Shown: piece after piece, positions 17,355 through 62,815 of the stretch
Position numbering within the stretch: the stretch's first letter is position 1
Layout: each line of letters begins with the position of its first letter
NCBI GenBank assembly: GCA_942159475.1
Contig: OW804096.1
Span: 38,315,744-38,379,743 of the forward strand
Origin: Sthenelais limicola
Taxonomy: Eukaryota; Annelida; Polychaeta; Phyllodocida; Sigalionidae
Length of the DNA stretch: 64,000 bases
Direction: 5' to 3'
Position numbers and translations under genes: made by a program
The notes under the pieces: generated by a model
What the model was told of the DNA's origin: nothing
Seen by the model: only the letters and a program-made list of their open reading frames with translations
Databases searched by the model: none

Positions 17355-17391
17355 TAGGTCGGTGTGGCCTAGTTTCTTCGGCCCGATGGGT

Positions 17392-17426
17392 AGCAGCGCA
17401 CCAGGTGCGCCGCCTACTGGTTTTTT
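17392..17426 (-). promoter_or_regulatory. Predicted -1 ribosomal frameshift signal (gag to RT)
   Basis: The gag frame ends TCA AAA AAC CAG TAG. The heptamer A AAA AAC (17426-17420) is a canonical -1 slippery site in the correct phase. Five nucleotides later a 9-bp stem GGCGGCGCA / TGCGCTGCT (two G.U pairs) closes a CCTGG loop (17414-17392). The RT frame is -1 to gag and stays open through the site. Spacing and phase match established eukaryotic retroelement frameshift signals; function is inferred. Confidence 0.7.
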
Positions 17427-18742
17427 GAGACACTACTGGCGGAGTTATCCGTAGGGCTTCCCGCCTTGCTCCTGGTGTAGTTGCTGCCATTATATGAGCT
17501 GTTGTTCCCTCCTCGCGCTCCAGGCTTAAAGGCACCTTCGGCTTGCTGGGATGCATGCCTTATTCTTCGTTCACATTCACGCACACTGTGTGGTATTTTC
17601 CTACCAATGGAGTCGCAGTATGTACATATGTGTAGGCAGGAAATGGCTCCCTCCTTGTGATCCCCACTGTGCCTACATCCTTTGTTGGTGTTGTAGGGCC
17701 TGCAGACGGTTTCAATTTGGGCTTTATTTCCATTGTCCTTCTTAGGTAGAGCCGATGAGGATTGGTGGTATTTGGCGTCGTTTGCATTTGCACTGCTTCT
17801 GGATATGCCTCCTCCTGTGAGGCAGATCCTTACTCTCTCATCTTGAATCGATGCTTTATCAGACCATGTGAACCTGCCATTCTCAATTGAATCAAACACA
17901 AACTGAGACCAGCGTCTCACATCATTCCAGGGGCGTTCCATGATATCCCTTGTAACCTGCCTTAAGTGCAGCATAATATCCTCATATTGCTCATCTTTAT
18001 ATGCATCTGGGTCGTTGAGAAGGGTTAGGAAACCATCGATATATTCCACAGAAGTTAATGTAGATCGGGCATCTAGCCTTTGCTTGACGGTTTGGTTACC
18101 ATCACGCTGCACATACATATAAGGTTTCGACATAATATTAGCACGGTGAATATTACCAATAATGTTAACCCTACCATGTAAGCCATCTGCAAATCGCTCC
18201 TGGTCTATCTGCTTCTCAATGAAATCGTCTGTGATCATTTGGCGTCTTAGGATTCTTGGTCCGGGGAATGACTGTCTAGTATTCCTGTGAATCCAGTCCT
18301 CCACTTTTAATTTTCTCTCCTGATATTCGTCGTCGTTTTCTTTCTTCTTTTCTTGGTCGTTAGATTCGGCCTTCCTCTTCCTGGATGGGGAGGATTTCTT
18401 GGTCCGGTGGGAGCGGCCGCTGGACTCTGACCTCCTGCTCCTTGACCGGGAGGAGCGGCTTTCTTTGTCTGACTCGTTATGGCGGGACTTTGTTTCCGAG
18501 TCCTTGTCTCCCTTTAGTTCCTTTCTTATCATGTCCAGTGTGGAAAGTATTGTGGCCACCTGAGACTTAACTTCTTTTATCTCACCCCCTACTCCTGTTA
18601 GCTCCTTCTGTAGGGACATGCAATTTGGTGCCTTGGGTTTGTCCGTTTTCTTCCCAGTCTTTTTCTTGTCTCCTTTCGGCTCCTCGTGTCCGCCCTCAGC
18701 GTGTCCACCATCAGCGTCCCTTTGTTCGTTGTTATCGGCCAT
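17414..18742 (-). CDS. Gag-like protein of DIRS-order element
   Basis: 442 codons from ATG at 18742. Order: acidic/Lys-rich N-terminus; short coiled-coil-like segment (about 43-78, LQKELTGVGGEIKEV); Ser/Arg-rich stretch (about 95-125, RSRRSESSGRSHR); a conserved-looking globular part (about 140-310); then a Cys/His region, C347-x8-C356, C369-x-H-x-C373-x2-C376-x8-H385-x4-C390, similar to the zinc-binding gag C-termini of metazoan DIRS/Ngaro elements. Role: nucleocapsid-like RNA packaging. The stop TAG at 17414 lies directly after the slippery heptamer. The SR-rich segment may serve nuclear localisation (inference). Confidence 0.82.
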   Translation of the reverse strand: MADNNEQRDADGGHAEGGHEEPKGDKKKTGKKTDKPKAPNCMSLQKELTGVGGEIKEVKSQVATILSTLDMIRKELKGDKDSETKSRHNESDKESRSSRSRSRRSESSGRSHRTKKSSPSRKRKAESNDQEKKKENDDEYQERKLKVEDWIHRNTRQSFPGPRILRRQMITDDFIEKQIDQERFADGLHGRVNIIGNIHRANIMSKPYMYVQRDGNQTVKQRLDARSTLTSVEYIDGFLTLLNDPDAYKDEQYEDIMLHLRQVTRDIMERPWNDVRRWSQFVFDSIENGRFTWSDKASIQDERVRICLTGGGISRSSANANDAKYHQSSSALPKKDNGNKAQIETVCRPYNTNKGCRHSGDHKEGAISCLHICTYCDSIGRKIPHSVRECERRIRHASQQAEGAFKPGARGGNNSSYNGSNYTRSKAGSPTDNSASSVSKNQ

Positions 18743-23276: not shown

Positions 23277-26237
23277 CTGTTTGCTTTTTTTAAAAGTCTT
23301 TATTTTCCGACAGTTTCGCAATGTAATGTTTCTAGGGATAGTCTTAATAGGCAAACGGGTCTTAAAATTGTACACCTGAATATTCGTTCAATTAATCATA
23401 AAATTGACCAGGTTAAAAGAGATATTTTAAGTGCAGACCTTGATATAATATGTTTCTCAGAAACGTGGTTAAAGAATGATGCGACCCTTGACCTATCAAG
23501 TCACCCAAATTATAACCTTATCAATTATAATCGGTCATCAAATAAACATGGTGGAGGACTATGTGTGTATATTAAGAATGAATATCAGTACACTATCGAC
23601 TGGGACCTTTCCACTAGTAATGAAACAATAGAACTACTTCACATAACAGTCAAGAAAGATTTTATGAAACCCATACGGCTAGGACTAATTTATCGGCCAC
23701 CGCAATTGAATATTAATCAATGTTGTATCAAGCTCAGAGAAATCCTTCAATCCCATGAAGAACTTAAACATCCGGGTACAATAATCCTGGTGGGTGACTT
23801 TAATATTGATCTTTGCGACAAAAAAGACCCCAAATATAAAATGATAATTGAATTAGCCCAAGATTTTGACCTTAATATTAATAAAAAATTTACTACACGC
23901 TATGGGCTCCAGAAAGATAGCATATTAGACTACTTTATGTTCAACCCTTTAAGGACGGGAGGCTGCATTAATGCAGTATTTGTATGGAATATCAATACCT
24001 CCCGTCCTTAAAGGGTTAAATGCAATAAAGCTGTCACAGCAGGCACAATAAATTATAACATTTCGGACCACCAAGCCATATATCTTACTATCAAACATAA
24101 GCGTATCAAAAAAACACCAGGGTCGAAAAAGAGAATCAGATCAATGAGAAAATTTAACCAGGAATCAATAAATGCCATCCTTGCAGATATTGATTGGGAC
24201 GATTTTTACGATATTCAGGATGTGGATAGAGCATGGGATAGACTTTTCTCTGTTATATTGGAGATTGCAGATACACTGGCCCCCTGGAAAAAGATACACT
24301 TTCATAGTGGTAGGCCTGTCTGGTACTCAGTTGAAATTGCGGAGGCCTGTAAGACTAGAGACGAATTATATAAAACTTCCAATATTACCAAAGACTCAAA
24401 CGATATCCAAGCTGCTAAGAACCAGAGAAATTATGTCAACACTTTATTTAGAAGGGCTAAATCACAATATTACACCACTCTATTAAGAAATAATTCTCAT
24501 AATAGCAAGAAACTTTGGCGCACCTTAGATGAAATTACCTCGAAAAAGAAAAAAGATCTAACAAATATATGTGACGATAATAATATTGAACTAAATACTT
24601 CTGACTCAGCAAACTTCCTAAATGAGCATTACTGCACTATTGGAGACAAAATACAAAATAAAATTGAAAAAATCCCTATCACATTGCATGACGAAATATT
24701 AAATGAAGACTGCCCTGCTTTTAACCTGTTGACTAACGAATCCCTCTTAGAACTGATTGCAGATATTGATATCACAAAATCATCTGGATGTAAAGAAATC
24801 TCTGCCAGCATTTATAAAGAACTATTTTACCTCTTATCAAGACAACTACTCCATGTCATGAATACGTCTATCAGGCAAGATATATTTCCATCAGCATGGA
24901 AAGTAGCTATTGTAAAGCCAATTCCAAAAAAACCCAACACTATCCATCCTGGGGACACCAGGCCTATAGCACTCACCCATATAGGGGGTAAACTCCTAGA
25001 AAAATTCATCGCAACCCAAATTTGGAACCACTTGGACAATAATAATATCCTAACAGAGCACCAGTACGGTTTCCGTAAAAAAAGATCCACACAAGAAGCC
25101 CTTTACGAATTGATAACATTAATAAACAAGAATAACAATTCGAACCTTTTGACAGCAGCAACGTTTATAGACTTTAGTAAGGCTTTCGATAGTGTAAATC
25201 ATGATATAATTATTAAAAAACTCGAAAAAATTGGCTTTAAGGATCTTGCTCTAAGTTGGTTGAAATCATATCTTCACGAAAGATCGCAGTATGTAAGACT
25301 AGGTGACACATATTCTAAACAACTTCAAATAGGCTGTGGTGTCCCCCAAGGATCGATTCTTGAACCTATTATTTACCTAGTATTCTCCAATGATATAAAT
25401 AAGTTGAATTTGTCATGCAGATTTTTATTGTACGCTGACGACACTGTTTTGTATACTACTGGCGAGAACATTTCTGACCTTAAAAAAAGTATGAACACGG
25501 ATCTGGGCGAATTTTATAAATGGTCAACTGCTAATAAAATACTCATAAATGCCAATAAAACTAAAACAATCCTGTTTGGAGAAAAAAGAAAGACCAATAA
25601 TCAATTACTCCTTAGAATCAATAACACAGAAATTGAATGTGTTAAAAACTATTCATATCTTGGTATTAATATCGATAATAAACTAAGTTTCCAAGAGCAG
25701 AGTAACATTTTAATAAAATCACTAAATTTTAGAATTCACCAGCTTGCAATCATTAGACCAAACTTGAATACTAAAAGCGCCTTACTATTAGTTAAAGCAA
25801 ATATCCTCTCAATCATTGACTATAGTGCCCCCTTTCTCAGCAACTGTAGTAAAAAAATACTAATAAAAATCCAACGATTACAAAACAAAGCGCTGAAAAT
25901 TGCTCTTGGATGCCTACCCAGAACGCCAACCACTGAAATTCATATCCATACTAAAACAATGGCTTTAGAAAATAGAACCGGCTTTCTTCTCTCCAAACTG
26001 GCATTTACCACCGTTGAAAAAAGAAGATTAAATAATGAACTCCAAATCGCTAGAGCAACTCGCCTAATGGATGCCCCGACCCTCCCACTATTCATCCCAA
26101 AGAAAGATTCAGACAAACATTCACTATATTATCAAGTATCTTTTAACTGGAATAAACTGCCTACCAAATTACGTAAAATCCAAAATAAAACCATGTTCAA
26201 AATTCTCATCAAAAAGCACTATCTAGAAAAACCATAA
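23277..26237 (+). pseudogene. Non-LTR retrotransposon ORF2 (endonuclease + RT), one stop from a MITE
   Basis: One frame is open from 23277 to 26237 except for a single TAA at 24009-24011 inside a 71-bp MITE. The N-terminal part is an apurinic-type endonuclease: HLNIRS, SETWL, LIYRPP, VGDFNID and SDH motifs in order. The second part (697 codons from 24144) is a LINE RT: YGFRKKRSTQ, FIDFSKAFD (Asp343), GVPQGSIL and YADD (430-433), then a C-terminal LPTKLRKIQN region. GSILEP replaces the usual GSILGP, a possible damaging change. It resembles the jockey/CR1 superfamily. No ATG lies near the start and no ORF1 is recognisable, so the 5' end is probably truncated. The 3' UTR runs to about 26430. Confidence 0.88.
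23945..24015. mobile_element. 71-bp piggyBac-like MITE inside LINE ORF2
   Basis: Perfect 18-bp inverted ends from CCCTTTAAGGACGGGAGG to its complement, extending to 20 bp with the flanking AA/TT. The right flank is TTAA (24016-24019) and the left is TCAA (23941-23944), reading as a TTAA duplication with one later change. CCC-starting ends and TTAA targets are typical of piggyBac. Insert plus duplication is 75 bp, so the LINE frame is kept but a TAA is introduced. Confidence 0.75.
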
Positions 26238-44259: not shown

Positions 44260-44263
44260 ATAT
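44260..44263. repeat. Target-site duplication ATAT (one side)
   Basis: ATAT directly abuts TGTAAGAA at the left edge of the LTR. The same four bases follow the other LTR at 54298-54301. A 4-bp duplication is usual for Ty3/gypsy integrases. Confidence 0.8.
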
Positions 44264-44499
44264 TGTAAGAAATTAGCCCTTACAGCATCAAGCTACTTAC
44301 TTGCAGATTAGTATGATTGAGAAGATCCCGCGCGTTGAAAGTGCGTGTGCGTCGTTGTGTCGTCGGGAATCGTCTGACCCCACTTGAACCGGCCCGAGCG
44401 GTGATCCTCGCTATGACGTCATCGCGGGGATCCCCGTGAAACGTGTCAGAACGAGGCGCGGCCGTATGACGTCACGGCCGCGGCCGCGAATGTACAACA
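44264..44499 (-). repeat. 3' LTR (236 bp)
   Basis: Identical to 54062-54297. Bounded by TG...CA in either orientation (TGTTGT...TTACA on minus). GC-rich, with two TGACGTCA palindromes (44414-44421, 44467-44474) and a palindromic GCGGCCGCGGCCG block. Confidence 0.95.
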
Positions 44500-44512
44500 C
44501 TCCTCCCCATTC
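44500..44512 (-). promoter_or_regulatory. Polypurine tract
   Basis: On the minus strand AATGGGGAGGAG directly precedes the 3' LTR, the expected plus-strand DNA primer site. Confidence 0.8.
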
Positions 44513-44644
44513 TATATTTGAGTGTTCTGAACTTTGGGAGTGTGGGGTATCCATATATACACATCCTAACGTTACTCCACTTGACCTGACTAACTATGAC
44601 TATATATATACAAGGTGGCGCCAGCTCTAGGCCAGGCAGAGCTC
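44513..44644 (-). other. 3' non-coding region between ORF3 and polypurine tract
   Basis: About 130 bp, no frame. Contains a TATATATA run near 44601. Confidence 0.5.
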
Positions 44645-46411
44645 TCAGAGCTCGAAGAATGCCCTAGCATTCTGTGTAGTGGCCTCTAGGACCACTGCCC
44701 TGGGGACATTGAGTATGCTCCCAATGCGTTGGGCCACTTCTACAATGCTGGCTGGCCCTTGTTGTTTAACATGTCGACCTGGTGGGCAGAGGTATGGGCT
44801 ATCTGTCTCCAAGAGCAGGTGTTGGAGTCCCAGGCGCCGGATAACTTCATCCAGCTCAGGGTGACAGTCCGGCTTCAGCAAGATTGCCGAGATGCTGAAC
44901 ATGACCCTGGGGAAGTTGGCCTGCCAGCGCTGCTGCTCATGTAGGCCCTGGTTGAAGCAATGCAGCTGGATCTTCTGCTCCTTGGGCACCACTGACCTGA
45001 GTACCATTCGGCAGCGCCTCTGTGCCTCCCCATCTCCTCGATCCCTAGCATGAATGACCAAAGGGATCTTCATTTCTGCTGCATGAGCGGCCATGTAGTG
45101 GAGTGCCGCCTCTTGTGCCACAACAGTGTCATCTCCTGAGTGATGGTATAAGTCAATTCCAACCTCTCCCACAGCACAAAGTTTCCCCTGTGCAGCGGCC
45201 TTCGCTCTCTCTGACATGTGCACCATCTCATCTGTGTCGAGTGGCACACTGGTTGGATGCAGGCCAACCGCTTTGTGCACGGTTGCCCCTGGCATCAGGT
45301 GGCGACTACTGGTCTTCCAATCCTCCGGGAAGCAGGCCACGTCAACCACTTCTAGTGAGTTCAGGTTGTGACAAAGGTCCTGGCCCGCAGCTTCAACTGC
45401 CCGTCGAGTGCCTAGCTTGCTCCAGATATTCCTCAGGTGGCAATGGGCATCAAAGCCATCTGGACGGATCATCCGGTCCATCCTGATCCGGTTGTGCCAA
45501 TGGTGCATGTCCTTCCTGTCCTCACTTCGCAGAAGTGCAAGAAGGGTTGCAGCCCACCGCCAGTGTAGCAGACATCCTAGTGTGTTTGGGGGGCTCCAAC
45601 TTCGCTGGACTGGAGTGTCGTAGCAAGCCCGGTCGAATAGATCCAGGAGAACTTGCTGGTTGGCTGACACGGTGACGTTCGCTGGCGCCAGCCCCTCTTC
45701 ACTGACAAATCGTAGTAGGCCATCGAGCCTGGTTCCCAGGCACTCAGCAATTCCTTGTAAGAAGCCCTGGCAGAGCTCAGCCCACTCATCCAGGAAGGCA
45801 TCACTGAAGTACTGGGGGTTCTTGCAGCTCGCTATGTGAACATCCAGGTTTGCCTTTCTCACACACTGTGTCCGGCAGCCCCAACATGTTGTCTCTGGCT
45901 GGAGGTAGTACGGCAGGTGAGATAGCACTACATGTCGGCTGATGTGGTTGTGTCGGCCGCATCCTGTAGTCACAGGGCACAAGCTCTGTTTGGGGATCTT
46001 CCGCTCAACCCTTGGAGATTCAGTGTGGGCCCCGTCTGAGCTGGTGGATTGTTGAGAGTAGCTGGATCGTCTTACTCCGCCAGCTACCTCAATTCGAATC
46101 CGCTTGGTGTTCACTGTGGGGTACTCTTCTTGCGGCCTCTTCAAAGAGCTTTCTTGAGCCGGGTATTGACCCAGCCTATGGCTATAGCCTGTTCTGTGGT
46201 TGGTCTGCTTCTGATTGTGCGCCGGGCCTGAGCCCAGCTGTGCCAGTCTCCTGGCCTCCGGTTTCTGATGTAACGCCGGGCCGTAGCCCAGCTGTGCCAG
46301 TCCCCTGGCGGCATCGATCTTAAATGGTACCCATAGTGTACCATCATGAACAAATGGGCTTGCCTTTGCTTGCTGCTCCCTAGATCCGTGGTCCTGGTAG
46401 CTGGAAGGCAT
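44645..46411 (-). CDS. ORF3: zinc-finger-like region fused to TatD-family nuclease
   Basis: 588 codons from ATG at 46411. Residues 35-66 hold a tandem duplication (ARGLAQLGYGPALHQK / ARRLAQLGSGPAHNQK). Residues 145-196 form two Cys/His clusters, C145-x5-C151-x8-H160-x4-H165 and C176-x2-C179-x12-H192-x3-C196. Residues 318-588 match the TatD metal-dependent DNase family: DAHCH (His323, His325), GEVGID (Glu416), VIHARD (His454), LHCF (His484) and ETDSPYL (Asp537), so every metal ligand is present. TatD proteins are Mg2+-dependent nucleases with exonuclease activity. It starts 103 nt after pol and ends before the polypurine tract. A splice acceptor ends 2 nt before the ATG. Its role in the element (cDNA processing, host-defence counter, R-loop or repair activity) is unknown. 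Confidence 0.9.
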   Translation of the reverse strand: MPSSYQDHGSREQQAKASPFVHDGTLWVPFKIDAARGLAQLGYGPALHQKPEARRLAQLGSGPAHNQKQTNHRTGYSHRLGQYPAQESSLKRPQEEYPTVNTKRIRIEVAGGVRRSSYSQQSTSSDGAHTESPRVERKIPKQSLCPVTTGCGRHNHISRHVVLSHLPYYLQPETTCWGCRTQCVRKANLDVHIASCKNPQYFSDAFLDEWAELCQGFLQGIAECLGTRLDGLLRFVSEEGLAPANVTVSANQQVLLDLFDRACYDTPVQRSWSPPNTLGCLLHWRWAATLLALLRSEDRKDMHHWHNRIRMDRMIRPDGFDAHCHLRNIWSKLGTRRAVEAAGQDLCHNLNSLEVVDVACFPEDWKTSSRHLMPGATVHKAVGLHPTSVPLDTDEMVHMSERAKAAAQGKLCAVGEVGIDLYHHSGDDTVVAQEAALHYMAAHAAEMKIPLVIHARDRGDGEAQRRCRMVLRSVVPKEQKIQLHCFNQGLHEQQRWQANFPRVMFSISAILLKPDCHPELDEVIRRLGLQHLLLETDSPYLCPPGRHVKQQGPASIVEVAQRIGSILNVPRAVVLEATTQNARAFFEL

Positions 46412-46440
46412 TCCTGCAAGATAATATAAAGTTTTATTAT
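46412..46440 (-). promoter_or_regulatory. Candidate splice acceptor for ORF3
   Basis: On the minus strand TTTATATTATCTTGCAG|GA precedes the ATG. AG is at 46415-46414 and the exon would start at 46413, 2 nt before the ORF3 start codon. A pyrimidine-leaning stretch precedes it. This would pair with the donor at 52631/52630, removing gag and pol (about 6.2 kb). Confidence 0.5.
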
Positions 46441-46514
46441 GTAGGTCTCCTTAGCTTCTAACTTAATCTAGGCATTCCACTTAACATACAGCAAGCACTG
46501 CTACCCATGTGAGA

Positions 46515-49500
46515 CTAATGTAGGAGTTTGGTCAGCCGGCGGACTGTGTCCCGAAGTCTTTGGGGCAAGCGAATGTTTCGGCCTGCCCTGGATCTCCTTG
46601 CTGGCTGCACCGGTACCACAGCTTCCTCGTCTGTAGTAGCCTCTTGCGCCACAGATTCCTCATCTGCGGTGTCTTCTCCCTCTTTGTCTCCATCGGTCCC
46701 TACCCTCTCTTTGGAAGGGGGCACTTCCTCAAATAAGGAACCCAAGTCCAGATTGTCAGTGTCTGGGGGGCCTGGTGGAGGGTCCTCCAGGTCATCTCGG
46801 TCTTCATCCTCTGCGTATGGGATAGTTGTGTCTAGATCCATCAGTTGATGGCGCATTCTCCGCATCCAGAGGGGAATAGCCCTATCTTGGCATAGCATCA
46901 GTCTGTCATGGTGCACCACTTCAGACTTGCGGCGACCTTTAATCCTGATGAGTACTGGAGAGAGTATTTCTATTACCAGATATGGGCCTTTCCATACTGG
47001 CTTCAGCTTTGGGCTCTGTCCCTTCTTGCTAGCCGTGTCCTTCTTGTAGGCCAGGTCTCCGATATTGTAGGAGGACTCTGAAAGCTTTGTGTCATACACG
47101 CGTTTCTGCACCGCCTGGGAGTGTTTCAGATTCTCCCTTGCATGCTGGTGTACTTTCTGTAGTGTGTCCCTGAGTTTACTGACATATTCTGGTACAGCTA
47201 GTCCATCTCGAGACGGGTCGACCAAGCCAAATATCAGCTCTTCCGGTTGCCACACTTCACGGCCAAGCATCATCATATTGGGAGAGTATCCTGTCTGTTT
47301 GTGTGGGACAGCCCTCAGTGCTCCTGCCAAAAGTGGGAGGTGTTCATCCCACTCTCTGGATTTCCCTTGCAGATAACACCTCACCATCTGTAGGATGGTC
47401 CGATTATAGCGTTCTACCTGACCATTCGAGGCTGGGTGGTACGGTGTCGTACGTGTCTTTTGAATCTTAAGGAGGTCACAGATGGCCCGAATTAGATTCC
47501 CGTCAACGTTCCTTCCTTGGTCAGTGTGCAGTTGGAGTGGACACCCCAACCTTGCTATGAACTCGTGAACCAACTTGTTGGCTAGCATCTCTGCTTTCTG
47601 ATGTGGAACTGGGAAGCACTCAACCCACTTTGTGAACTGGTCGACAATCATCAAGATGCATGTATTACCCGCATTTGACATTGGCAGTGGGCCTAAAATG
47701 TCCAGGTGTATCCGTTCCAGTGGCGCTCCTGCATGGTATTGGCCCAGTGCCCCTTTGGCTCTTTGACAGGGCTTTTTATTCCGGCTGCACACCGCACACG
47801 TCCGCACATACTCTCTAGTATCCTCGGCCATGTGGTGCCAGATGAATCGGCGTCTCAGTCGGGCGATTGTTTTATCTTGTCCCAAGTGTCCTGCTGTGGG
47901 ATGGTCATGATTCAAGCTGAGTACCTCTTTTTGATAATGTTTTGACACTACCAGCAGTAGGTTAGACCCTTCCATTGTCTCCCATCTGTAGTGTAGGACT
48001 CCCTGTATTGGTACCAGTTGGTTTCGATGCTGCCAGAAGTACTTGGTGGCCAGACTGCTGAGTGCTAGCTCCGCCTGACTAGGTGTGTTGTTCCCTTCAA
48101 CCCAGCGTATCAGCGGGGCTATCTCTGTATCTTCTAGCTGCCGATCCCTCAGTTCCTGTTTAGGGTAACGTGTGACCCATTCGTCTGATGGTTCTGTGTC
48201 ACTTGCTTTTGCTGGTGCTTCATCCTTGTCAGGGGCTTGCACCTCAATTGCCTTCACTGCCAGTGGTACTACATCGTCTACCTCGTCTTCGAATCTGGCC
48301 CATTGCCCATGGGCGCGGACACAGAAAGCACAGCCTCCACAAGGCAACTCAGATGGTGATTTTCCTGCCTGGTAACAGTTGCAGTAGTCTATGGTATCTG
48401 GGATCCTAGACAAACAGTCGGCATTAACATGCTTTTTCCCCTGGCGGTGTAAGATGGTCATATCATATTGGGCCAGCTCCTCTAGCCACCGGGCAAGCTG
48501 TCCCTGAATGTTCTTGAACCCCATGAGCCAGGTGAGGCTATTGTGGTCAGTCCTCACGAGGAATGGACGGCCTAGCAGGTAATGGCGGAATTGTCTAGTT
48601 AGCCGTATAACTGCAAGAAGTTCCTTTCTGGTTGTACAGTACTTGCGCTGTTCTGCACTCAAGACGAAGCTCCCGTATGCAATAATACATATTGATCCAT
48701 CCACCCGCTGTCCCAGCTCCCCTCCGATAGCTGTGTCTGATGCATCGCAGTCTATGATGAATTGATGCTTTGGATCTGGATATGGTAACACAGGAGCGTT
48801 CACTAAGGCCTCTTTTAATCCTATGAATGAGCGGTCTGCCACTTCTGACCATTGAAACCGGGCTTTTGGCCCAGTAAGGGTGTAAAGTGGGGCTGAAATA
48901 TGTGCATATTTCTTCACAAACTCACGATGGTAGTTGGCAAAGCCGAGGAATGATTCGACTTCCTTGACACAGGTTGGTACTGGCCACTTCTTGATGGTGT
49001 CTTCACTCTCCGGGTTTATCGTGATGCCTTCTGGCGTCACCAGCCTGCCCAAGAACATCACTTTATTTTGGAAGAGGGCACACTTCCTAGGCTTCAATTT
49101 GAGGTTATAATGTCTGAATCTTTCAAGGGCCTCTACCAGGTTGTCGCGGGCCTGTTGGAAGCTGTTTCCAAACACCACTACATCGTCCAGGTATGATAGG
49201 GCCTTCTTCCACTGCATGCCATGCAGCACCAGTTGTACCGCTCTTTGGAATGTAGCTGGGGCATTACAAAGGCCGAATCCCATGCGTGTCCATTCAAACA
49301 GTCCATACTTAGTAATGAATGCAGTCTTGTGTTGGTCTGCCTCATCAAGCTGCACCTGCCAGTACCCCGAGTTCATATCCAGCGTGCTGTAGAGCTCACT
49401 GCCCGCAAGTGAATCGAGACATTCCTCAATTTTTGGTAGAGGGAAGGCGTCCTTGACAGTGACATTGTTTAACGCCCGGTAATCAAGGCACCAACGCACA

Positions 49501-50771
49501 GATCCATCCTTCTTTCTGACAAGAACAGGCACTGACGCCCAAGCTGAGCATGACGGCTTGATCACACCAGCCTCAAGCATTCCCTTGAGATGTTTTTCTT
49601 CTTCTTCCTGGAATCCTAAGGGTGTGCGCCGCATGCGTTGCCTGACTGGTCGAGTCTCACCTGTGTCTATCTGGTGTTTTATCGCAGTGAAGCACCCAAG
49701 ATCCTTGTCGTGCTCTGAAAATGTTGTCTGGTGTTCGATCAGTAGTTGAGCCAGCTCTGCTGCCTGACATTCAGTTAACAGACTGGTCGACCTCTTGAAT
49801 AGGTCCTTGAGATGATCCGGGATTTTTGGAACAAGGGATTCAATTTGCTCATCGGTGATGAGTACTTGCGTCCCGGGGTGACCCCAGGTATGGTCTGTGT
49901 GACCATTGGTCCCAGGCTCCAGTGTGGCGCCCACTGTCCTGATTTTTCCCGATTTGTTCGGTTGATCAGTCCCAGTCTCCATTTCCACCGATTCTAGTGA
50001 TCCAATCATCTGGCCCTTTCGAATGGTGATGTGGTGGTCTGTGACATTAGTCAACTCTATTGCCCCTACCTTGGCATGTCCTAGCAGGGCATATGGGCAC
50101 AATACGCCTGGGCAGATATTCGTTGGACTCATCAGAGAGTACCCTGATGGCTCATCTGGAGCCCCAATTTTAATGGGTATCTGGCTCACCGAGTGCGGAG
50201 GTATGACGGTTCTCCTGCTACATTCCACCCTGGCCACATTCTGGTTTCCTCCTCCATTCCGGCGATATATCGCCTTAGATAATTTTCCATCCACTTCCAC
50301 TGTGGCCAGTGTGAGGTCAATCTTGGCTCCGGCTGCTTTTAGAAAGTCCAGCCCAAGGATGACTTTGTCAGTTACTGGCGCTATGTATGTGTGCCAGAGC
50401 TTACAGTTGTCACCGAACCTTATCTCAATAGGTTCAGTCAAGCAGCCAGTCATGAAACAGTCTTCACCTACTTGCTTGAGTCTCACCTCCTCCAACATTT
50501 TTGGGGGCTTCCTCATGATTTGTACAAAGGAGGGACTCAGTACTGACACTTGAGCTCCTAAGTCCACAAGTGCTTCTACCGGCGTGCCATTGATCTGCAC
50601 GGGTAGTACCAGACTCTCTGGGGGTGTATTTGGTGATTTCCGGAACTCAACACTCCGAATACCAGCATGCTCTGTTTCTTGAGGCTGGGCATGATTGGGA
50701 CGGGGGAGCGGTTCTTTTCTGGCATGTTTCTCTTCTTCCGGGGGTCGGCCTTGGTCAGATGGGGACAACAA
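46515..50771 (-). CDS. Pol polyprotein: protease, RT, RNase H, integrase
   Basis: 1418 codons shown from a non-ATG codon; the frame is open about 75 nt upstream into gag, in -1 phase. Protease: residues 56-80 with D70-L-G-A in place of the usual D-S/T-G-A. RT about 370-580: Asp465 (YSTLDMNSGY) and YLDD 527-530. RNase H about 670-790: Asp674/676, Glu717, Asp742, Asp785. Integrase: HHCC zinc site H957-x4-H962-x29-C992-x2-C995; catalytic Asp1024, Asp1084, Glu1120 (DD35E); GPY/F-like GPYLVIEI near 1250. No chromodomain. The acidic C-terminal tail ends in an Arg-rich stretch. No frameshift or stop. Only the protease triad is unusual. Confidence 0.95.
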   Translation of the reverse strand: MLSPSDQGRPPEEEKHARKEPLPRPNHAQPQETEHAGIRSVEFRKSPNTPPESLVLPVQINGTPVEALVDLGAQVSVLSPSFVQIMRKPPKMLEEVRLKQVGEDCFMTGCLTEPIEIRFGDNCKLWHTYIAPVTDKVILGLDFLKAAGAKIDLTLATVEVDGKLSKAIYRRNGGGNQNVARVECSRRTVIPPHSVSQIPIKIGAPDEPSGYSLMSPTNICPGVLCPYALLGHAKVGAIELTNVTDHHITIRKGQMIGSLESVEMETGTDQPNKSGKIRTVGATLEPGTNGHTDHTWGHPGTQVLITDEQIESLVPKIPDHLKDLFKRSTSLLTECQAAELAQLLIEHQTTFSEHDKDLGCFTAIKHQIDTGETRPVRQRMRRTPLGFQEEEEKHLKGMLEAGVIKPSCSAWASVPVLVRKKDGSVRWCLDYRALNNVTVKDAFPLPKIEECLDSLAGSELYSTLDMNSGYWQVQLDEADQHKTAFITKYGLFEWTRMGFGLCNAPATFQRAVQLVLHGMQWKKALSYLDDVVVFGNSFQQARDNLVEALERFRHYNLKLKPRKCALFQNKVMFLGRLVTPEGITINPESEDTIKKWPVPTCVKEVESFLGFANYHREFVKKYAHISAPLYTLTGPKARFQWSEVADRSFIGLKEALVNAPVLPYPDPKHQFIIDCDASDTAIGGELGQRVDGSICIIAYGSFVLSAEQRKYCTTRKELLAVIRLTRQFRHYLLGRPFLVRTDHNSLTWLMGFKNIQGQLARWLEELAQYDMTILHRQGKKHVNADCLSRIPDTIDYCNCYQAGKSPSELPCGGCAFCVRAHGQWARFEDEVDDVVPLAVKAIEVQAPDKDEAPAKASDTEPSDEWVTRYPKQELRDRQLEDTEIAPLIRWVEGNNTPSQAELALSSLATKYFWQHRNQLVPIQGVLHYRWETMEGSNLLLVVSKHYQKEVLSLNHDHPTAGHLGQDKTIARLRRRFIWHHMAEDTREYVRTCAVCSRNKKPCQRAKGALGQYHAGAPLERIHLDILGPLPMSNAGNTCILMIVDQFTKWVECFPVPHQKAEMLANKLVHEFIARLGCPLQLHTDQGRNVDGNLIRAICDLLKIQKTRTTPYHPASNGQVERYNRTILQMVRCYLQGKSREWDEHLPLLAGALRAVPHKQTGYSPNMMMLGREVWQPEELIFGLVDPSRDGLAVPEYVSKLRDTLQKVHQHARENLKHSQAVQKRVYDTKLSESSYNIGDLAYKKDTASKKGQSPKLKPVWKGPYLVIEILSPVLIRIKGRRKSEVVHHDRLMLCQDRAIPLWMRRMRHQLMDLDTTIPYAEDEDRDDLEDPPPGPPDTDNLDLGSLFEEVPPSKERVGTDGDKEGEDTADEESVAQEATTDEEAVVPVQPARRSRAGRNIRLPQRLRDTVRRLTKLLH

Positions 50772-50850
50772 TTGGCCTATTGAGTTGCCCCGGTCAAGTT
50801 TTCCGACCCTGCGGTCTTTGATGGTGCAGGCGATTTTGCTCCCTGGGATG
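50772..50850 (-). promoter_or_regulatory. Gag/pol overlap, -1 frame
   Basis: The pol frame is -1 relative to gag and stays open for about 75 nt upstream of the gag TAG (50779-50777). I find no canonical X XXY YYZ heptamer in phase; GGAAAAC near the stop is the nearest. The mechanism of pol expression is therefore unresolved. Confidence 0.4.
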
Positions 50851-52558
50851 GGCAGTCACGTCTGAAATGTCCTTCCTTCTGGCAATTGAAGCAGGTCATT
50901 GATGATACCGGCGACTTGGCTCGGGGCGAGGGGCAGTCACGTTTGAAGTGGCCCTCTTTTTGGCAGTTGAAGCATGATCCAGGTGAGGCACTTCTGGCCC
51001 GAGCTGGATAAGGACTTGCGGGACGTGATGGTCTGTTACTGCCTAATGCTTCAGCCACGATCTTTTTGATCTCCTCTCGCATATCACTTGACACTCCTAT
51101 ACTGGCCACAGTCGCAATTGGTGCCTCCTCCGGCTTGGCAAAGGAAACGGCCCTAACCCTCTTCTCTCCCAGAATGAAGCGTGCATTGTGGATAGAGTGG
51201 CGTAGGCTATGCAGTGCATCGGACACTGACTTCAGGTCCCTTTCGCCAGCCACAAGTGCTGCTTGTCTGTCGGCACAGCCACGGAGGACAGCATCCACGG
51301 CAGCCCTTTGGACTGTCTTCTCGTGTTCGCCTGGGTGGCCATCTCGAGCCAAGTCAAGGCATCTCTGCCCAAACTTTTCAAGATCCTCCCCAGCGTCCTG
51401 ATTGACACTTTGAAGTGCCCGTCTTGCTGAGGTTGGGGGATTCCGCTTCCCAAATCGGTCCCGCATGCTCCTCTTGATTTTACCCCAGTCCTTCTTGACC
51501 TTCTTGGGTAGTGAGGCAAAATAAACCAGTGCCTCGTCTCGGAGGTTCTGGACCAGCATGTCCACCCGTTTCCTCTCAGTCCAGTGGTTCCGGCGGATAA
51601 TTCTTTTGAACTGCTCCTCGTATATGTCCCACTTAAGGGACCCATCGTAAGTGGGGATTTTTCCTGGGTGACCCCCCTTTCTTCCCCTCTCATCTTCCGA
51701 GATGTCTGACGATGCCGTTGAACTGGCATCTGTGTCCGACTCCTCTGAGTCCGAGCCATCCACTCGGCACGATTGATAAGGGTCTTTCGGTGGCTTGTAC
51801 CTCCGTTTCCCAGACGCTTGGCTGCCTTGCCTGCTTCCGTGGCCCTTTTCGGGACTCTTGGCATCGTGCCTCTGGTGGGTGTCCCACTCGCTGGATCCTT
51901 GGGCCCCTGCTTCTCTTCTCTCGGATCCTGAGAGACTCTGGTACACATTATTTGTGACCTTACCTCGATACGGAGTGCTTGTGGCAATTGGTGGTATGTG
52001 GAAGTGCGATCCCCCAATGGCTTCTCGGTTTGCGGAGCCCGTAGGCCTCAGGTTTGTAAGCGTATATTCCAGCTTTCTCAGGCGCTCCTCCTGTTTCTCA
52101 ATGAACTCCTCCATTCTGGCCTGACGGCTACCTTGATCGGTCTCTTCCTCTGTCAGCGGCCTGCTATCCTGCGACTTGCATAACCAAGTCTGCTTCTCTT
52201 GTCTGAGCTGTGTGTTCTCCTCCTCCAGCTCTTTAAGCCTGGCACACTCTAGCTCCAGTTCGCCCATTTTCCTTTCCATTTCTGACATCTGCGTCACTGT
52301 CTTGTCATCAAGATCGTTTGAGGCCTGACAGGTGAGGTAACCTCTGTCGAACAGTTTTGCGACGATAGTCGGCAGTTGGGGGTCATTATTCCCATGCCCA
52401 TTGTTGAGTGCGGCCACAAACTCATGTGCATCAGCTACTGGACCGATGTCTTTGACTACTGTGCGAATTGTTCTCGCCCTTCCCGGTCCGATGTTCTCCA
52501 ACTGCCGTAGCATTGTCTCATCGGCTGTGTTGACATCAATTGGGAGTACCGGGGACAT
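50777..52558 (-). CDS. Gag with N-terminal helix-hairpin-helix and two zinc knuckles
   Basis: 593 codons from ATG at 52558 in good Kozak context (ACAACCATGT). Residues 5-50 (IDVNTADETMLRQL, then IGPGRARTI) look like a ComEA-type helix-hairpin-helix DNA-binding motif, unusual for a gag. Coiled-coil segments follow at about 92-130 and 145-170, then an acidic/Ser-rich linker (about 255-295). A retrotransposon-gag capsid-like domain follows at about 300-470 (PTYDGSLKWDIYEEQFKRI). Two CCHC knuckles, C-x2-C-x4-H-x4-C, lie at 529-542 and 556-569 and arose by a 27-residue duplication. Function: RNA binding and particle assembly. Confidence 0.9.
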   Translation of the reverse strand: MSPVLPIDVNTADETMLRQLENIGPGRARTIRTVVKDIGPVADAHEFVAALNNGHGNNDPQLPTIVAKLFDRGYLTCQASNDLDDKTVTQMSEMERKMGELELECARLKELEEENTQLRQEKQTWLCKSQDSRPLTEEETDQGSRQARMEEFIEKQEERLRKLEYTLTNLRPTGSANREAIGGSHFHIPPIATSTPYRGKVTNNVYQSLSGSERREAGAQGSSEWDTHQRHDAKSPEKGHGSRQGSQASGKRRYKPPKDPYQSCRVDGSDSEESDTDASSTASSDISEDERGRKGGHPGKIPTYDGSLKWDIYEEQFKRIIRRNHWTERKRVDMLVQNLRDEALVYFASLPKKVKKDWGKIKRSMRDRFGKRNPPTSARRALQSVNQDAGEDLEKFGQRCLDLARDGHPGEHEKTVQRAAVDAVLRGCADRQAALVAGERDLKSVSDALHSLRHSIHNARFILGEKRVRAVSFAKPEEAPIATVASIGVSSDMREEIKKIVAEALGSNRPSRPASPYPARARSASPGSCFNCQKEGHFKRDCPSPRAKSPVSSMTCFNCQKEGHFRRDCPSQGAKSPAPSKTAGSENLTGATQ

Positions 52559-52620
52559 GGTTGTGGCAGATGATAAGCGGTTAATGAACTAGTTAATGCT
52601 GAGAAACCCAGCCAAGGTGT

Positions 52621-52640
52621 CTCCTCTTACCTCGTAGAAA
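52621..52640 (-). promoter_or_regulatory. Candidate splice donor upstream of gag
   Basis: Minus-strand CTACGAG|GTAAGAGG. The exon ends at 52631 and the intron starts at 52630, 72 nt before the gag ATG. Close to the MAG|GTRAGT consensus. Splicing to 46414/46413 would place ORF3 as the first ORF of the message. Confidence 0.5.
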
Positions 52641-54045
52641 ATGCCGGGTGTGCCCAGCAAACTCGTCAGGTATTTTATAATCGCCGGGAATTCCCAGCGG
52701 CTGACAGTAGTGAGTTAGTGAGGGAGCTATTCCTTATCGTATTTTAGTTTTCCCTATTTTTCACGCAATAGGTCCTTATCCTAGATTATTAGTGTCAGGG
52801 TTGCATGCACTTAATGAAGTGTCAAATTTTCCTCAATGAACCTAGATATTTCCGATTTTTATTTTTTTACCTATAAAAATCCACTGAAAATTCACTTCTG
52901 GTCCTTAATTACCAATGTTCAATGATAACCTATGACCTAAGTCAATATGATAAGCAGCAATGACAAAAATCCAGAAAGTTGCCAAAAGTCAGTAAAATGT
53001 GGTTTCTGAACACACCCAATAACTTATAAACTATCAGAATCCTGAAACTTCCAGTGCAAAGTACATTTGGGGGTCAAGTCTAATTAAAAGTGTCTAATTA
53101 ACAATGTTCATGAAATTAAGTTGTCTGATAACACAGATGTTCAGTTAAAAGATGGTTTCTGAATGCAACCAATGATGTCTGAAACAACAGGATATAGCCA
53201 AGGAGGATGCTGAGGTTGGGGTTGCTTTCTCCCACCCCAATATGACTAATCTCCTTCTCTAACTGGTAATCCACATGTGGAAAGAACAGGGAAATAACCC
53301 AACAATTGGTGAAAATAACATGGAAATAGTTAGCCAATATAGTAGTATAATATATTCTCTGTAGATAGATGGTTTCAGAATAGCATTGGAGTTGACAGTA
53401 AATTGGATGTTGGTGGATGAAGATGGTTCCTGTAATCTAACACATTCCTAGAAATCCAAGATGGCTTTCTTTGATCTCCAGTGAATGAAAGAAAAACCCT
53501 CTACAGAACTGAGAAGGCTGCCAACAAAATATCTGTCCAATTAATAAAATACAGTGGCAGAAATGATAGGCAAGTTCCCCTCTCTTTTACACCGGTCTTA
53601 GAATATTCCAAAACCAGTTATTCCATTCAGATGGCAATGGATTAAACAGTTGGTCCTTTGTTTAATGAAGGGTGTAATGGAAGCTTGCTTAAGTCTTAAT
53701 CCTAGCACATGGCATGCTAAGATGGGGGGATGTTGGTAGACCCCTAGCCTGGAGTGTATCCAAGCACACACAAATATAACAAACAATTTGGTGAAAATGG
53801 TCGAAAATATACAGCCCAATGCAACAAAACAAGGTTCCCACTAATTCTGCCACAATAGTGAAAGCCTTCCCTTGATAATTACACCAACCTGTAGTGATGA
53901 GAAATGAAAAGCAACACCCAGTGTCCTATAGTATCCGGTTTGGATGCTCTGCCACTGCACCCCTAATAATCCATTTACTATCCTGAATGAAGGTGATCAA
54001 AAGTTTCAAAAACTTTTGCAATGATAGTCCAATCCACGCAAGTAA

Positions 54046-54060
54046 GCACTCCTGGCACCA
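54046..54060 (-). promoter_or_regulatory. Primer-binding site, probably tRNA-Leu
   Basis: One base after the 5' LTR the minus strand reads TGGTGCCAGGAGTGC. TGG pairs with tRNA CCA. The rest is closest, from memory, to the 3' end of a leucine tRNA (one difference that could pair as G.U). The tRNA identity is inferred. Confidence 0.6.
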
Positions 54061-54061
54061 A

Positions 54062-54297
54062 TGTAAGAAATTAGCCCTTACAGCATCAAGCTACTTACTT
54101 GCAGATTAGTATGATTGAGAAGATCCCGCGCGTTGAAAGTGCGTGTGCGTCGTTGTGTCGTCGGGAATCGTCTGACCCCACTTGAACCGGCCCGAGCGGT
54201 GATCCTCGCTATGACGTCATCGCGGGGATCCCCGTGAAACGTGTCAGAACGAGGCGCGGCCGTATGACGTCACGGCCGCGGCCGCGAATGTACAACA
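54062..54297 (-). repeat. 5' LTR (236 bp) with two CRE palindromes
   Basis: Contains TGACGTCA at 54212-54219 and 54265-54272, the consensus CREB/ATF site, probably in U3. GC-rich, CpG-rich, with no TATA box visible. A GTAAGT splice donor (CAA|GTAAGT, intron from 54098) lies near the downstream end. Confidence 0.9.
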
Positions 54298-55075
54298 ATA
54301 TTCTCGTGAAATGCATAAGGAGCTGGTTTATACTGGACCCTCACCACCGAAATGAACAAAGAATGCAGAAATGGAAATGTAAATAAATGGGAAAATGTAA
54401 TAGGGGGTCATGAGTTAATCTGCTGCTGTATCATGGTGGAAGAAATATAGTTGGAACACTTAACTTGACTCATATAAGTTAACCATTTACGCAAGCTTTC
54501 AACGAGCTTTATTTTGCTATGAAAATCGGTGAAACATTGCGGAAGACATAAATAAATGTACCTGGCATATAGAAAGTAATACACGGGACAAAGTGGGAAA
54601 ATGGGCAAGAGTAATAAGAATAAAAATAAGGTTTGATATAAATGGTTATAAATCTTGATACAAATGACAATAAGGCCTGTGTAGCAATGTTAATGTGGAA
54701 GAAATGTTGCGCGTGAATACCAACACTTGTCACTGTCACTGCCTGTTACCCCTGGTGTTACTCCTGCCGCCCCTGAAGGGGGAGGGACGGTAGAGGTTGG
54801 TGGCGTTACCCCTGCTGCCTTGTAACAATAATAGGTGCAATAATATTATTTCACCGAAAGGTGGATTGTTACAGCCTTAGCATGTATAAATTACAATAGT
54901 GTACTCGGAACGATTAAGAAAATCAATATAAATAATATTCATATAATCTTCAAATGTATCTAGAAATAAGGGTGGTATAGATGAAGTCCTGATCGACCGA
55001 ACTAATAATTTTAAAAAAAGACTATTTGACACAAATGACTATCAAGTGTGCTAAAGGTTAAAAAAAAACCATCAA
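54298..55075. other. No gene recognised; TSD at start
   Basis: Begins with the ATAT duplication (54298-54301). Nothing else supported. Confidence 0.4.
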
Positions 55076-60299: not shown

Positions 60300-60757
60300 T
60301 GATATGAGGGGAAATTATGTTACCTTATATTGTTCCACTCATGTAAAGTATTTTGTCTTTAGTTTGGCATATATAAATGGTAAACATACAACAATGGTAT
60401 AAAATTAGCATAATTAGTGATTTTTGAAATATAGCAAAAGGAATAATAAATGAGTATTAATAGATAGTTCATATCATTATGATTATGTCAGGCTGCCCCT
60501 TACATTATGTTATATTACAATATGTGTCTTTCTAAGTATGAATGCATATATTACAAGTTTCCTATCTTAATAATGTTTAGATTTAAAGTAATATTTCCAC
60601 TTTAGGGGCAGTGTTAACTCTTGACTGATTTTAATGAGAGTAATGTTTAACTGATGCATTTTTAATGGCCAGAGCAATGTTTTGTATGCATCTGTGTGTA
60701 TTAGATATGGAATCATAGCTCATCCATGTAAATCTGATATGTTTTGAGAGAGGTGTA
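60300..60757. other. No gene recognised
   Basis: AT-rich; nothing supported. Confidence 0.4.
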
Positions 60758-62815
60758 ACCACCTCCAGTAACCTCCTCCAGTAACTCCCTCAAGTAACTT
60801 CCTCCAGTAACTTCCTGAAGTATCCTCCTCCAGTAACCTCCTCCAGTAACCTCCTCCAGTAACCCCATCCAGTAACTTCCTCCAATAACCACCCCCAGTA
60901 ACCTTTAGTAACCTGCTCCAGCAACCCCTCCCAGTAACTTCCTCCAGTAACCTCCACCAGTAACACCCTCCAGTAACTTCCTGAAGTATCCTCCTCCAGT
61001 AACCCCCTCAGTAACCTCCTCCAGCAACCCCTCCCAGTAACTTCCTCCAGTAACCACCTCCAGTAACCTCCACCAGTAACACCCTGAAGTATCCTCCTCC
61101 AGTAACCCCCTCAGTAACCTCCTCCAGCAACCCCTCCAGTAACCTCCTCCAGTAACCCCATCCAGCAACCCCTCCCAGTAACCCCCTCCAGTAACCCACT
61201 CCAGTAACCCACTCCAGCAATCCCCTCCAGCAACCCCTCCCAGTAACTTCCTCCAGTAACCACATCCAGCAACCCACTCCAGTAACCACATCCAGCAACT
61301 CACTCCAGTAACCCCCTCCAGTAACTCCCTCCAGTAGCCCCCTCCAGTTACTTCCTCGTGCAACCTCCTCCAGTAACGCTCTCCATTAACCCCCTCCAGT
61401 AACCTCCTCCAGTAACCCCCTCCAGTAACCTCCTCCAGTAACCCCATCCAGCAACCCCTCCCAGTAACCACCTCCAGCAAGCCACTCCAGTAATCCCCTC
61501 CAGCAACCCCTCCCAGTAATTTCCTCCAGTAACCACCTCCAGCAACCCACTCCAGTAACCCCCTCCATTAACCACCTCCAGTAACCTCCTCCAGTAACCT
61601 CCTCCAGTAACCTCCTCCAGTAACCACCTCCAGTAACCTCCACCAGTAACACCCTGAAGTATCCTCCTCCAGTAACCCCCTCAGTAACCTCCTCCAGCAA
61701 CCCCTCCATTAATCTCCTCCAGTAACCCCCTCCATTAACCACCTCCAGTAACCTCCTCCAGTAACCTCCTCCAGTAACCACCTCCAGTAACTTCCTGAAG
61801 TATCCTCCTCCAGTAACTTCCTGAAGTATCCTCCTCCAGTAACCCCCTCCAGTAACCCCCTCAGTAACTTCCTCCAGTAACCCCCTCCAGCAACCCCTCC
61901 CAGTAACTTCCTCCAGCAACCTCCTCCAGTAACCTCCTCCAGTAACTTCCTTAAGTATCCTCCTCCAGCAACCTCCTCCAGTAACCACCTCCAGTAACTT
62001 CCTTAAGTATCCTCCTCCAGTAACTTCCTGAAGTATCCTCCTCCAGTAACCCCCTCCAGTAACCCACTCCAGTAACCCCCTCTAGTAACCCCCTCTAGTA
62101 ACTCCCTCCAGTAGCCTCCTCCAGTAACCCCCTCCAGTAACCCCCTCCAGTAACCCCCCCCCCCCCCAGTTACTTCCTCCAGCAACCCCCTCCAGCAACC
62201 TCCTCCAGTAACCCCCTCCAGCAACCTCCTCCAGTAGCCCCCGCCAGTAACCCCCTCCAGTAGCCCCCTCCAGTTACTTCCTCCAGCAATGTCCTCCAGT
62301 AACTACCTCCAGTAGCCCCCTCCAGTTACTTCCTCCAGTAACCCCCTCCAGTAGCCCCATCCAGTAACCCCCTCCAGTGACCTCCTCCAGTAACCCCCTC
62401 CAGTAACCCCATCCAGTAACCACCTCCAGTAATCCTCTCCAGTAACCCCCTCCAGTAACTCCCTCCAGTAACCTCCTCCAGTAACCTCCTCCAGTAACAT
62501 CCTCCATAACTTCCTCCAGTAGCCCCTTCCAGTAACCACTCAAGTAACCTGTATTTTGTATTGAAAATGTATTGATTAATATTTCTCAGGTGTGATCAAT
62601 TTTAAAGTTTAGTAACCACCTCCAGTAACTTCCTGAAGTATCCTCCTCCAGTAACTTCCTGAAGTATCCTCCTCCAGTAACCCCCTCCAGTAACCCCCTC
62701 AGTAACCTCCTCCAGTAACCTCCTCCAGCAACCCCTCCCAGTAACTTCCTCCAGTAACCCCCTCCAGCAACCCCTTCCAGTAACCACTTCCAGTAACCAC
62801 TTCCAGTAACCTGTA
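60758..62815. repeat. 2-kb minisatellite, 13-bp unit ACCTCCTCCAGTA
   Basis: More than 140 variants of a 13-mer, with CCCCTCCAGTA, ACCACCTCCAGTA and TATCCTCCTCC variants and longer-range patterns (for example blocks with TTCCTGAAGTATCC). An interruption at about 62547-62613 (TTGAAAATGTATTG, then TTTCTCAGGTGTGATC) recurs after the array at 62812-62868, showing segmental duplication. Minus-strand frames of up to 200 codons (VTGGGYWRRLLEG repeats, 13 residues per 39 bp) come from the stop-free unit and are not called as genes. Confidence 0.9.

Follow-up and report, generated by a model that had tools for sequence, protein, structure and literature searches.

A TatD nuclease-like gene in the third reading frame of a Ty3-type retrotransposon clade of the annelid Sthenelais limicola

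We analysed a stretch of 64,000 nucleotides (nt) from the polychaete Sthenelais limicola (GenBank assembly GCA_942159475.1, contig OW804096.1, positions 38,315,744 to 38,379,743 of the forward strand), hereafter the window. On its minus strand lies a young copy of a Ty3-type long terminal repeat (LTR) retrotransposon, complete over 10,034 bp (44264–54297), whose third open reading frame (ORF3) encodes a TatD nuclease-like protein. The order along the minus strand is 5′ LTR, primer-binding-site (PBS)-like sequence, leader (1.5 kb, between this site and gag), gag, pol, ORF3, polypurine tract and 3′ LTR (Table 1). The LTRs are direct repeats with TG..CA ends, and the 5′ LTR equals the 3′ LTR over 236 of 236 nt, with a target site duplication (TSD) outside them. 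These features, together with the CCHC gag, the protease, reverse transcriptase (RT), RNase H and integrase of pol, the PBS-like site and the polypurine tract, place the element among the Ty3/Gypsy retrotransposons. The pol frame is open from position 50855 and overlaps the end of gag in the −1 frame, and the PBS-like site is presumably of the tRNA-Leu type. An earlier note on this DNA had put a Ty3/gypsy element at exactly these coordinates, TSD excluded and with no strand given. It had also described identical LTRs within a target duplication (here ATAT on both sides) and a 588-codon frame between integrase and polypurine tract, on the same strand as gag and pol, and all of this stands.

ORF3 is a member of the TatD family (PF01026) with a full domain and the expected site residues, and nuclease activity is predicted for it. 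Its match to the Pfam TatD_DNase model scores 143 bits (cut-off 27), so it is not a chance ORF, a possibility rejected on the E-value of that match (1.2e-41). Six residues, H323 and H325 (HxH), E416, H454, H484 and D537, are invariant across ORF3 and four relatives that are 20–42% identical. We take these to be the TatD metal site, which the earlier note had called complete. The closest solved structure is TatD TM0667 of Thermotoga (E 3e-20), which is likewise the best Foldseek match of a predicted ORF3 model (E 9.6e-14) that is confident in the TatD part only (mean predicted local distance difference test score 57). ORF3 shares the full domain and the site residues with cellular TatD proteins (e.g., E. 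coli TatD, YcfH and YjjV, and TATDN1-3), but differs from them in being encoded by a retrotransposon and in the ∼320 residues ahead of the domain, which contain two zinc-finger-like motifs. All four residues of motif 1 are invariant in ORF3 and the same four relatives. Motif 2 occurs in ORF3, P0001 and P0002 and is absent from P0003 and P0004. QatD of the bacterial Qat anti-phage system (NF041926) is another TatD protein beyond housekeeping. ORF3 matches its NCBIfam model (E 8.4e-14), but with 51 bits (cut-off 230) it is no member, and its setting is different.

Table 1. Positions in the window of the retrotransposon, its genes, motifs and splice-like signals (a slash marks the putative splice site).
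Feature	Position	Strand	Basis
5′ LTR, 236 nt	54062..54297	-	same as 3′ LTR at 236/236 nt
3′ LTR, 236 nt	44264..44499	-	match to 5′ LTR
Target site duplication ATAT, 5′ side of element	54298..54301		read from sequence
Target site duplication ATAT, 3′ side of element	44260..44263		read from sequence
Primer-binding-site-like TGGTGCCAGGAGTG	54047..54060	-	sequence right behind 5′ LTR
gag, 593 aa: Retrotrans_gag, two CCHC knuckles	50777..52558	-	Pfam
pol frame: protease, RT, RNase H, integrase, in that order	46515..50855	-	Pfam, sequence
ORF3, 588 aa, zinc-finger-like and TatD nuclease-like	44645..46411	-	ORF list, Pfam, alignment
TatD domain, ORF3 residues 320-586	44654..45454	-	PF01026 E 1.2e-41; Foldseek
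ORF3 finger-like motif 1, C145-x5-C151-x8-H160-x4-H165	45917..45979	-	alignment with four relatives
ORF3 finger-like motif 2, C176-x2-C179-x12-H192-x3-C196	45824..45886	-	alignment
Polypurine tract AATGGGGAGGAG	44500..44511	-	sequence touching 3′ LTR
Donor-like CAA/GTAAGTA within LTR, near LTR 3′ end	54092..54101	-	sequence
Second donor-like GAG/GTAAGA, upstream of gag	52625..52633	-	sequence
Splice-acceptor-like tract ending TTGCAG/GA, abuts ORF3 ATG	46412..46440	-	sequence

A search of the genome (1.13 Gb, 161 contigs) with ORF3 returned 31 matches, the genome searches here scoring the best candidates only. We read 25 of them, spread over 17 places, as whole or partial ORF3s of Ty3 type (C6:94.85M and C1:9.7M, two of the 17 places, were assigned from similarity alone), and the other six as Helitron TatDs. 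Six places, the window included, form family A, with ORF3s 97–100% identical to that of the window. At five of the six, again including the window, pol lies immediately upstream of ORF3 and an LTR immediately downstream, and the pol of the other four is 99.2–99.8% identical to the window's over 1396–1397 nt. At the sixth, C1:76.1M, the fetched stretch contains pol and ORF3 but no 3′ LTR. The ORF3 frame is unbroken at four of the six places (the window, L002, L003 and L004), L004 missing 36 nt in frame, and is broken in L005 (a TAG and a frame break) and L006 (a frame break). Because their flanks or TSDs and their LTR pairs differ from copy to copy, the A copies are independent insertions. Flanks are ATAT in the window, ATAC at C8, GTAT at C1:72.8M and TATA at C2:111M (within a TA run, the length of the duplication being uncertain), and mismatches between the two LTRs of a copy number 0, 2, 5 (plus 16 gap bases) and 4. 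At C4:44.1M, the 5′ LTR was not found where expected. The earlier note had named two things to look for, a unique host retrocopy and full-length copies without ORF3. The first is rejected, since ORF3 stands at several places, in copies with their own TSDs and LTR pairs.

The second was sought with the integrase-bearing end of pol, which gave 84 matches (the best 83 of 6920 first-look candidates were scored, and the count is a lower bound). At least 14 of these, at 11 places and 52–100% identical to the query, constitute the clade: six A places (98–100%), three family B places (C4:136.7M, 72%; C8:7.17M, three matches, 52–73%; C2:148.7M, 67%) and two fragments (C3:78.5M, 89% over 157 aa; C2:5.17M, two matches, 74–75%). 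ORF3 or part of it lies downstream of pol at all six A and all three B places, and it belongs to the element, as the earlier note had held. At C8:7.17M, frames that are LINE-like (long interspersed nuclear element) by eye separate pol from ORF3, and at C4:136.7M ORF3 stops where the RT of another element begins. Downstream of the two fragments (2.5 and 2.8 kb fetched) there is neither ORF3 nor an A or B LTR. At none of the 11 places does pol run straight into an LTR. The remaining 70 matches, 34–38% identical, belong to other Ty3-type families, and by coordinates none adjoins an ORF3 match.

Several places hold reduced copies. L028 (C1:62.2M) is a B copy with an internal deletion that keeps gag, protease, the TatD end and both LTRs. 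Extra ORF3 pieces are of B type (L011, L012, L013) or A type (L015, L016), and the stretches fetched around them contain either no clade pol or a 15-residue trace of it. In L015 (C2:73.0M) an LTR and the start of the leader lie near the ORF3 piece, and in L011 (C1:157.5M) a B-type LTR start is fused to ORF3 sequence. Both look like internal deletion derivatives rather than splice products.

Purifying selection acts on ORF3 among the four intact A copies. The ratio of nonsynonymous to synonymous divergence (dN/dS, omega) across all six pairs is 0.21, 0.50, 0.23, 0.30, 0.25 and 0.50, with binomial tests against neutrality giving, in the same order, p values of 1e-6, 0.057, 6e-4, 3e-5, 4e-6 and 0.052. 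The earlier note had suggested such selection from the intact frame. Between A and B (window and L009), dN is 0.41 and dS is saturated near 2.8. In ORF3, the two families share 43–44% identity in the finger region (L009, L010, L014) and 66–67% in the TatD part (L009, L010); in pol, the figures are 85–86% for RT and 72–77% for the integrase core (L014, L031). The omega and dS values bear on whether ORF3 could be a captured host gene that has no function for the element and rides in a single successful family. The copies are few (six A places, ORF3 broken in two) and TatD genes are of cellular origin, as such a passenger would be. Nonetheless, ORF3 persists with intact site residues in two families whose synonymous divergence is saturated, omega is below 1 at p < 0.001 in four of the six A pairs, and distant relatives have the full architecture (P0001, P0002). 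We therefore reject a passenger gene on the dN/dS and binomial tests among intact A copies, and consider it very improbable. That ORF3 belongs to the regular gene set of a Ty3-type retrotransposon clade is shown by its position in both diverged families, by purifying selection, by the finger-like motifs and by a TatD domain that is intact.

Beyond this genome, P0001 (623 aa, nine member sequences) and P0002 (528 aa, five) are 41–42% identical to ORF3 and contain TatD and both finger-like motifs. BLAST matches them to ORF3 residues 138–330 at 3.6e-50 and 1.9e-35, respectively; a homology search limited to the same residues was empty and is uninformative, given these BLAST matches. P0003, a Lingula anatina protein, and P0004 share motif 1 and TatD with ORF3, and P0006 (290 aa, from a 1.2-kb contig) is 47% identical in its TatD part. 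Among viral contigs, a scan with the ORF3 alignment yielded 61 stretches that fit the pattern, none of them confirmed, and scans with pol and with P0001 gave no match. In a TatD tree, an analysis that the earlier note had proposed with TATDN1, TATDN2 and TATDN3 and that we built without TATDN1 and TATDN3, families A and B, P0001, P0002 and P0006 form one clade (support 100/100) and the Helitron TatDs a separate one (100/99). ORF3 stands apart from an intron-containing host TatD gene at C6:48.87M, on a weak backbone (58/91). This host gene, which we take to be TATDN2, is 26% identical to ORF3 and makes up the three host matches in a Pfam TatD scan of the genome (22 matches, by our reading 12 Ty3-type, seven Helitron-type and three host).

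The matches 25–27% identical to ORF3 were candidates for host-like TatD genes, and were rejected as such when found in Helitron-type loci (L017–L022, at C5:97.2M, C9:19.9M, C3:116.05M, C1:70.7M, C5:94.4M and C6:90.15M). In all six, the TatD frame lies just 3′ of helicase frames on the same strand (helicase recognised partly by eye). Helitron_like_N, tested in two of the six loci, matches the upstream parts of L019 (L029, E 4.8e-23) and L022 (L030, E 1.4e-24). By Pfam, one frame of L019 contains both PIF1 (8.6e-40) and OTU (1.9e-11), L017 contains Pif1_2B and OTU, and L020 contains OTU; Pfam TatD is found in L019 (2.3e-41), L018 (3.1e-41) and L022 (1e-42). The TatD frame is unbroken in the latter three, where a CCCH-like motif precedes it by eye, and broken in L017, L020 and L021. 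Omega among the Helitron TatDs is 0.08–0.33 (10 pairs of five frames, one pair with two differences only). A search with a Helitron TatD returned the same six places, a partial seventh beside L019 (C3:116.06M), and decayed pieces at C1:0.8M, C5:40.5M and C2:18.0M.

Helitron-type loci are a second transposable-element class with TatD in the same genome. Helitrons and Helentrons with accessory OTU, RPA or endonuclease genes, likewise captured host-type enzymes, have been described, in an article whose main text does not mention TatD (PMC4067079). Those of this genome carry OTU plus TatD and, as rolling-circle DNA transposons, are unlike the LTR element of the window. That unrelated Ty3-type and Helitron-type elements both carry TatD suggests that these enzymes are useful to mobile DNA. 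Judged from the sequences, the two TatDs are likely of independent origin, short of proof because the tree backbone is weakly supported. We lean slightly towards TatD as a recurrent accessory gene, captured independently by the Ty3-type clade and by Helitrons, each with a different zinc-finger-like N-terminus, for a shared need that may concern extrachromosomal DNA ends or the disarming of nucleic-acid defence.

Errantivirus-type Ty3/Gypsy elements (Metaviridae) carry env as a third ORF. The window element resembles them in its LTRs, PBS-like site, polypurine tract, gag, pol domains and an extra ORF after integrase behind splice-like signals, but its third ORF is zinc-finger-like plus TatD and lacks a membrane segment. 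The donor-like motif in the LTR is found in four of five fetched A 5′-end pieces, the fifth piece having no LTR. As CAAGTAAGTAGC, it occurs in the LTRs of both families, including four of the five recognisable B LTRs (L009, L010, L011 and the 3′ LTR of L028); the 5′ LTR of L028 has a 3-nt insertion in the motif, and L012 has no recognisable LTR start. BLAST does not match the A and B LTRs to each other, and by eye conservation between them is best in two blocks, CAAGTAAGTAGC and the TGTTGTA start. Immediately upstream of the ORF3 ATG, all six A copies have TTATATTATCTTGCAG/GA, and the three B loci in which the ORF3 start was found (L010, L012, L014) have CTGTTACCTTCCAG/GA at the same spot, with CAG/GAATG common to all nine. 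The remaining interval between pol and ORF3 has no clear A–B similarity by eye. The pattern of the second donor-like site was not found in B loci L014 and L028, and the fetched pieces of the other A copies do not cover its region.

Because the donor-like LTR motif and the acceptor-like motif are kept in both families, ORF3 is likely made from a spliced, env-like subgenomic mRNA that joins the LTR donor to the acceptor at the ORF3 ATG, although the LTR motif could have another use. Such an RNA would make ORF3 production separate from that of Gag-Pol. The env position and env-like splice signals might also fit an entry protein with a TatD-derived ectodomain. We reject env identity and regard such a protein as extremely unlikely: no membrane-like or hydrophobic segment was found in ORF3 (best 19-residue window, Kyte-Doolittle mean 1.04), and zinc-finger-like motifs with a nuclease fold indicate an intracellular role.

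On this sequence evidence, ORF3 is probably a gene for an accessory nuclease that the element expresses through splicing. It would act as a metal-dependent nuclease that its fingers direct to nucleic acid, and it might trim or clear the ends of intermediates in the element's own replication (3′ ends, flaps and leftover RNA on the cDNA) ahead of integration. Among the possible jobs, end trimming is our tentative first choice, with counter-defence a close second. In the latter, the ORF3 nuclease would destroy host small-RNA precursors, guides or defence nucleic acids, in the manner of silencing suppressors. ORF3 diverges faster than pol between A and B, and TatD is also carried by Helitrons, elements without reverse transcription. 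Moreover, ORF3 and the LTR vary more than pol among A copies: in 250-nt bins compared with the window, 0–4 sites differ in pol, 0–6 across the pol end, 1–12 in ORF3 and 2–12 in the last bin, which spans the 3′ end and LTR (excluding the first and last bins of L006, which is broken there). However, the omega values reflect constraint, not positive selection, and the synonymous excess of ORF3 over pol points to recombination behind this variability. Between the window and L002, synonymous differences number 3 in the pol stretch and 25 in ORF3 (Fisher p 1.4e-4, the synonymous sites of pol being estimated). Because synonymous divergence is higher in ORF3 than in pol, we read the 3′ part of the A copies as recombined between variants. 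A counter-defence role is conceivable on these grounds, if rather unlikely.

ORF3 could also act on the RNA of RNA–DNA hybrids, as human TATDN2 is reported to do, and so supplement RNase H during reverse transcription. We doubt this target, as pol has its own RNase H and ORF3 is not grouped with the presumed host TATDN2 gene in the tree, weak as its backbone is. In its favour, passages of a review state that human TATDN2 degrades RNA in R-loops (PMC12754012).

Several points weigh against ORF3 as a conserved accessory nuclease gene expressed through splicing. Copies without ORF3 may have been missed, only the best candidates being scored. Two A-pair omegas (0.50 and 0.50) miss p 0.05, and the sole B pair (L009–L010, up to the L010 frame break) gives a weaker 0.65, with one copy broken. 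P0001 and P0002 are known here as proteins alone, not as genes of Ty3 elements. TatD-fold enzymes need not be nucleases, and the TatDs of Helitrons argue for a role that is not specific to reverse transcription. Finally, a search for spliced retrocopies came up empty: family A patterns gave six matches, each with two mismatches and none at known copies, and family B patterns gave none.

We know of no transposable element in which a TatD enzyme has an established role. Titles and abstract beginnings of the papers listed for TatD or TATDN2 and retrotransposons or transposable elements, a scope outside which transposon libraries such as Repbase fall, describe no TatD in an LTR element, nor is TatD mentioned in an article on LTR retroelements (PMC2774666). 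A TATDN2 retrocopy has been reported, in passages that contain no TatD of an LTR element (PMC5408686). The legend of a giant squid Hox cluster figure names TATDN2 beside transposon-type names (PMC6962438), and this TATDN2 could be a transposon TatD.

Additional features of the element and the window are as follows. The gag N-terminus is helix-hairpin-helix-like (HHH_3, E 0.00097, sub-threshold; residues 7–48, window 52415–52540), and family B gag aligns with window gag from residue 7, this stretch included. A DIRS-like element on the minus strand (14372–18742) has tyrosine recombinase (Phage_integrase, 3.5e-8) and RT frames, and one further frame without a Pfam match. A LINE-type RT frame lies on the plus strand (24144–26237; RVT_1, 2.2e-35). 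A tandem repeat of ∼160 copies of a 13-bp unit occupies 60755–62812, and a 200-aa frame inside it is a by-product.

The gene types of LTR elements are extended by a conserved nuclease-like gene that occupies the place of env and is probably spliced as env is. With Helitrons of this genome carrying a second TatD, a shared cause behind both is plausible. Some invertebrate genes annotated as TATDN2 may, by extension, be transposon genes. The finding also poses a testable question: for which nucleic-acid step, in transposition or in host defence, is the ORF3 enzyme required?

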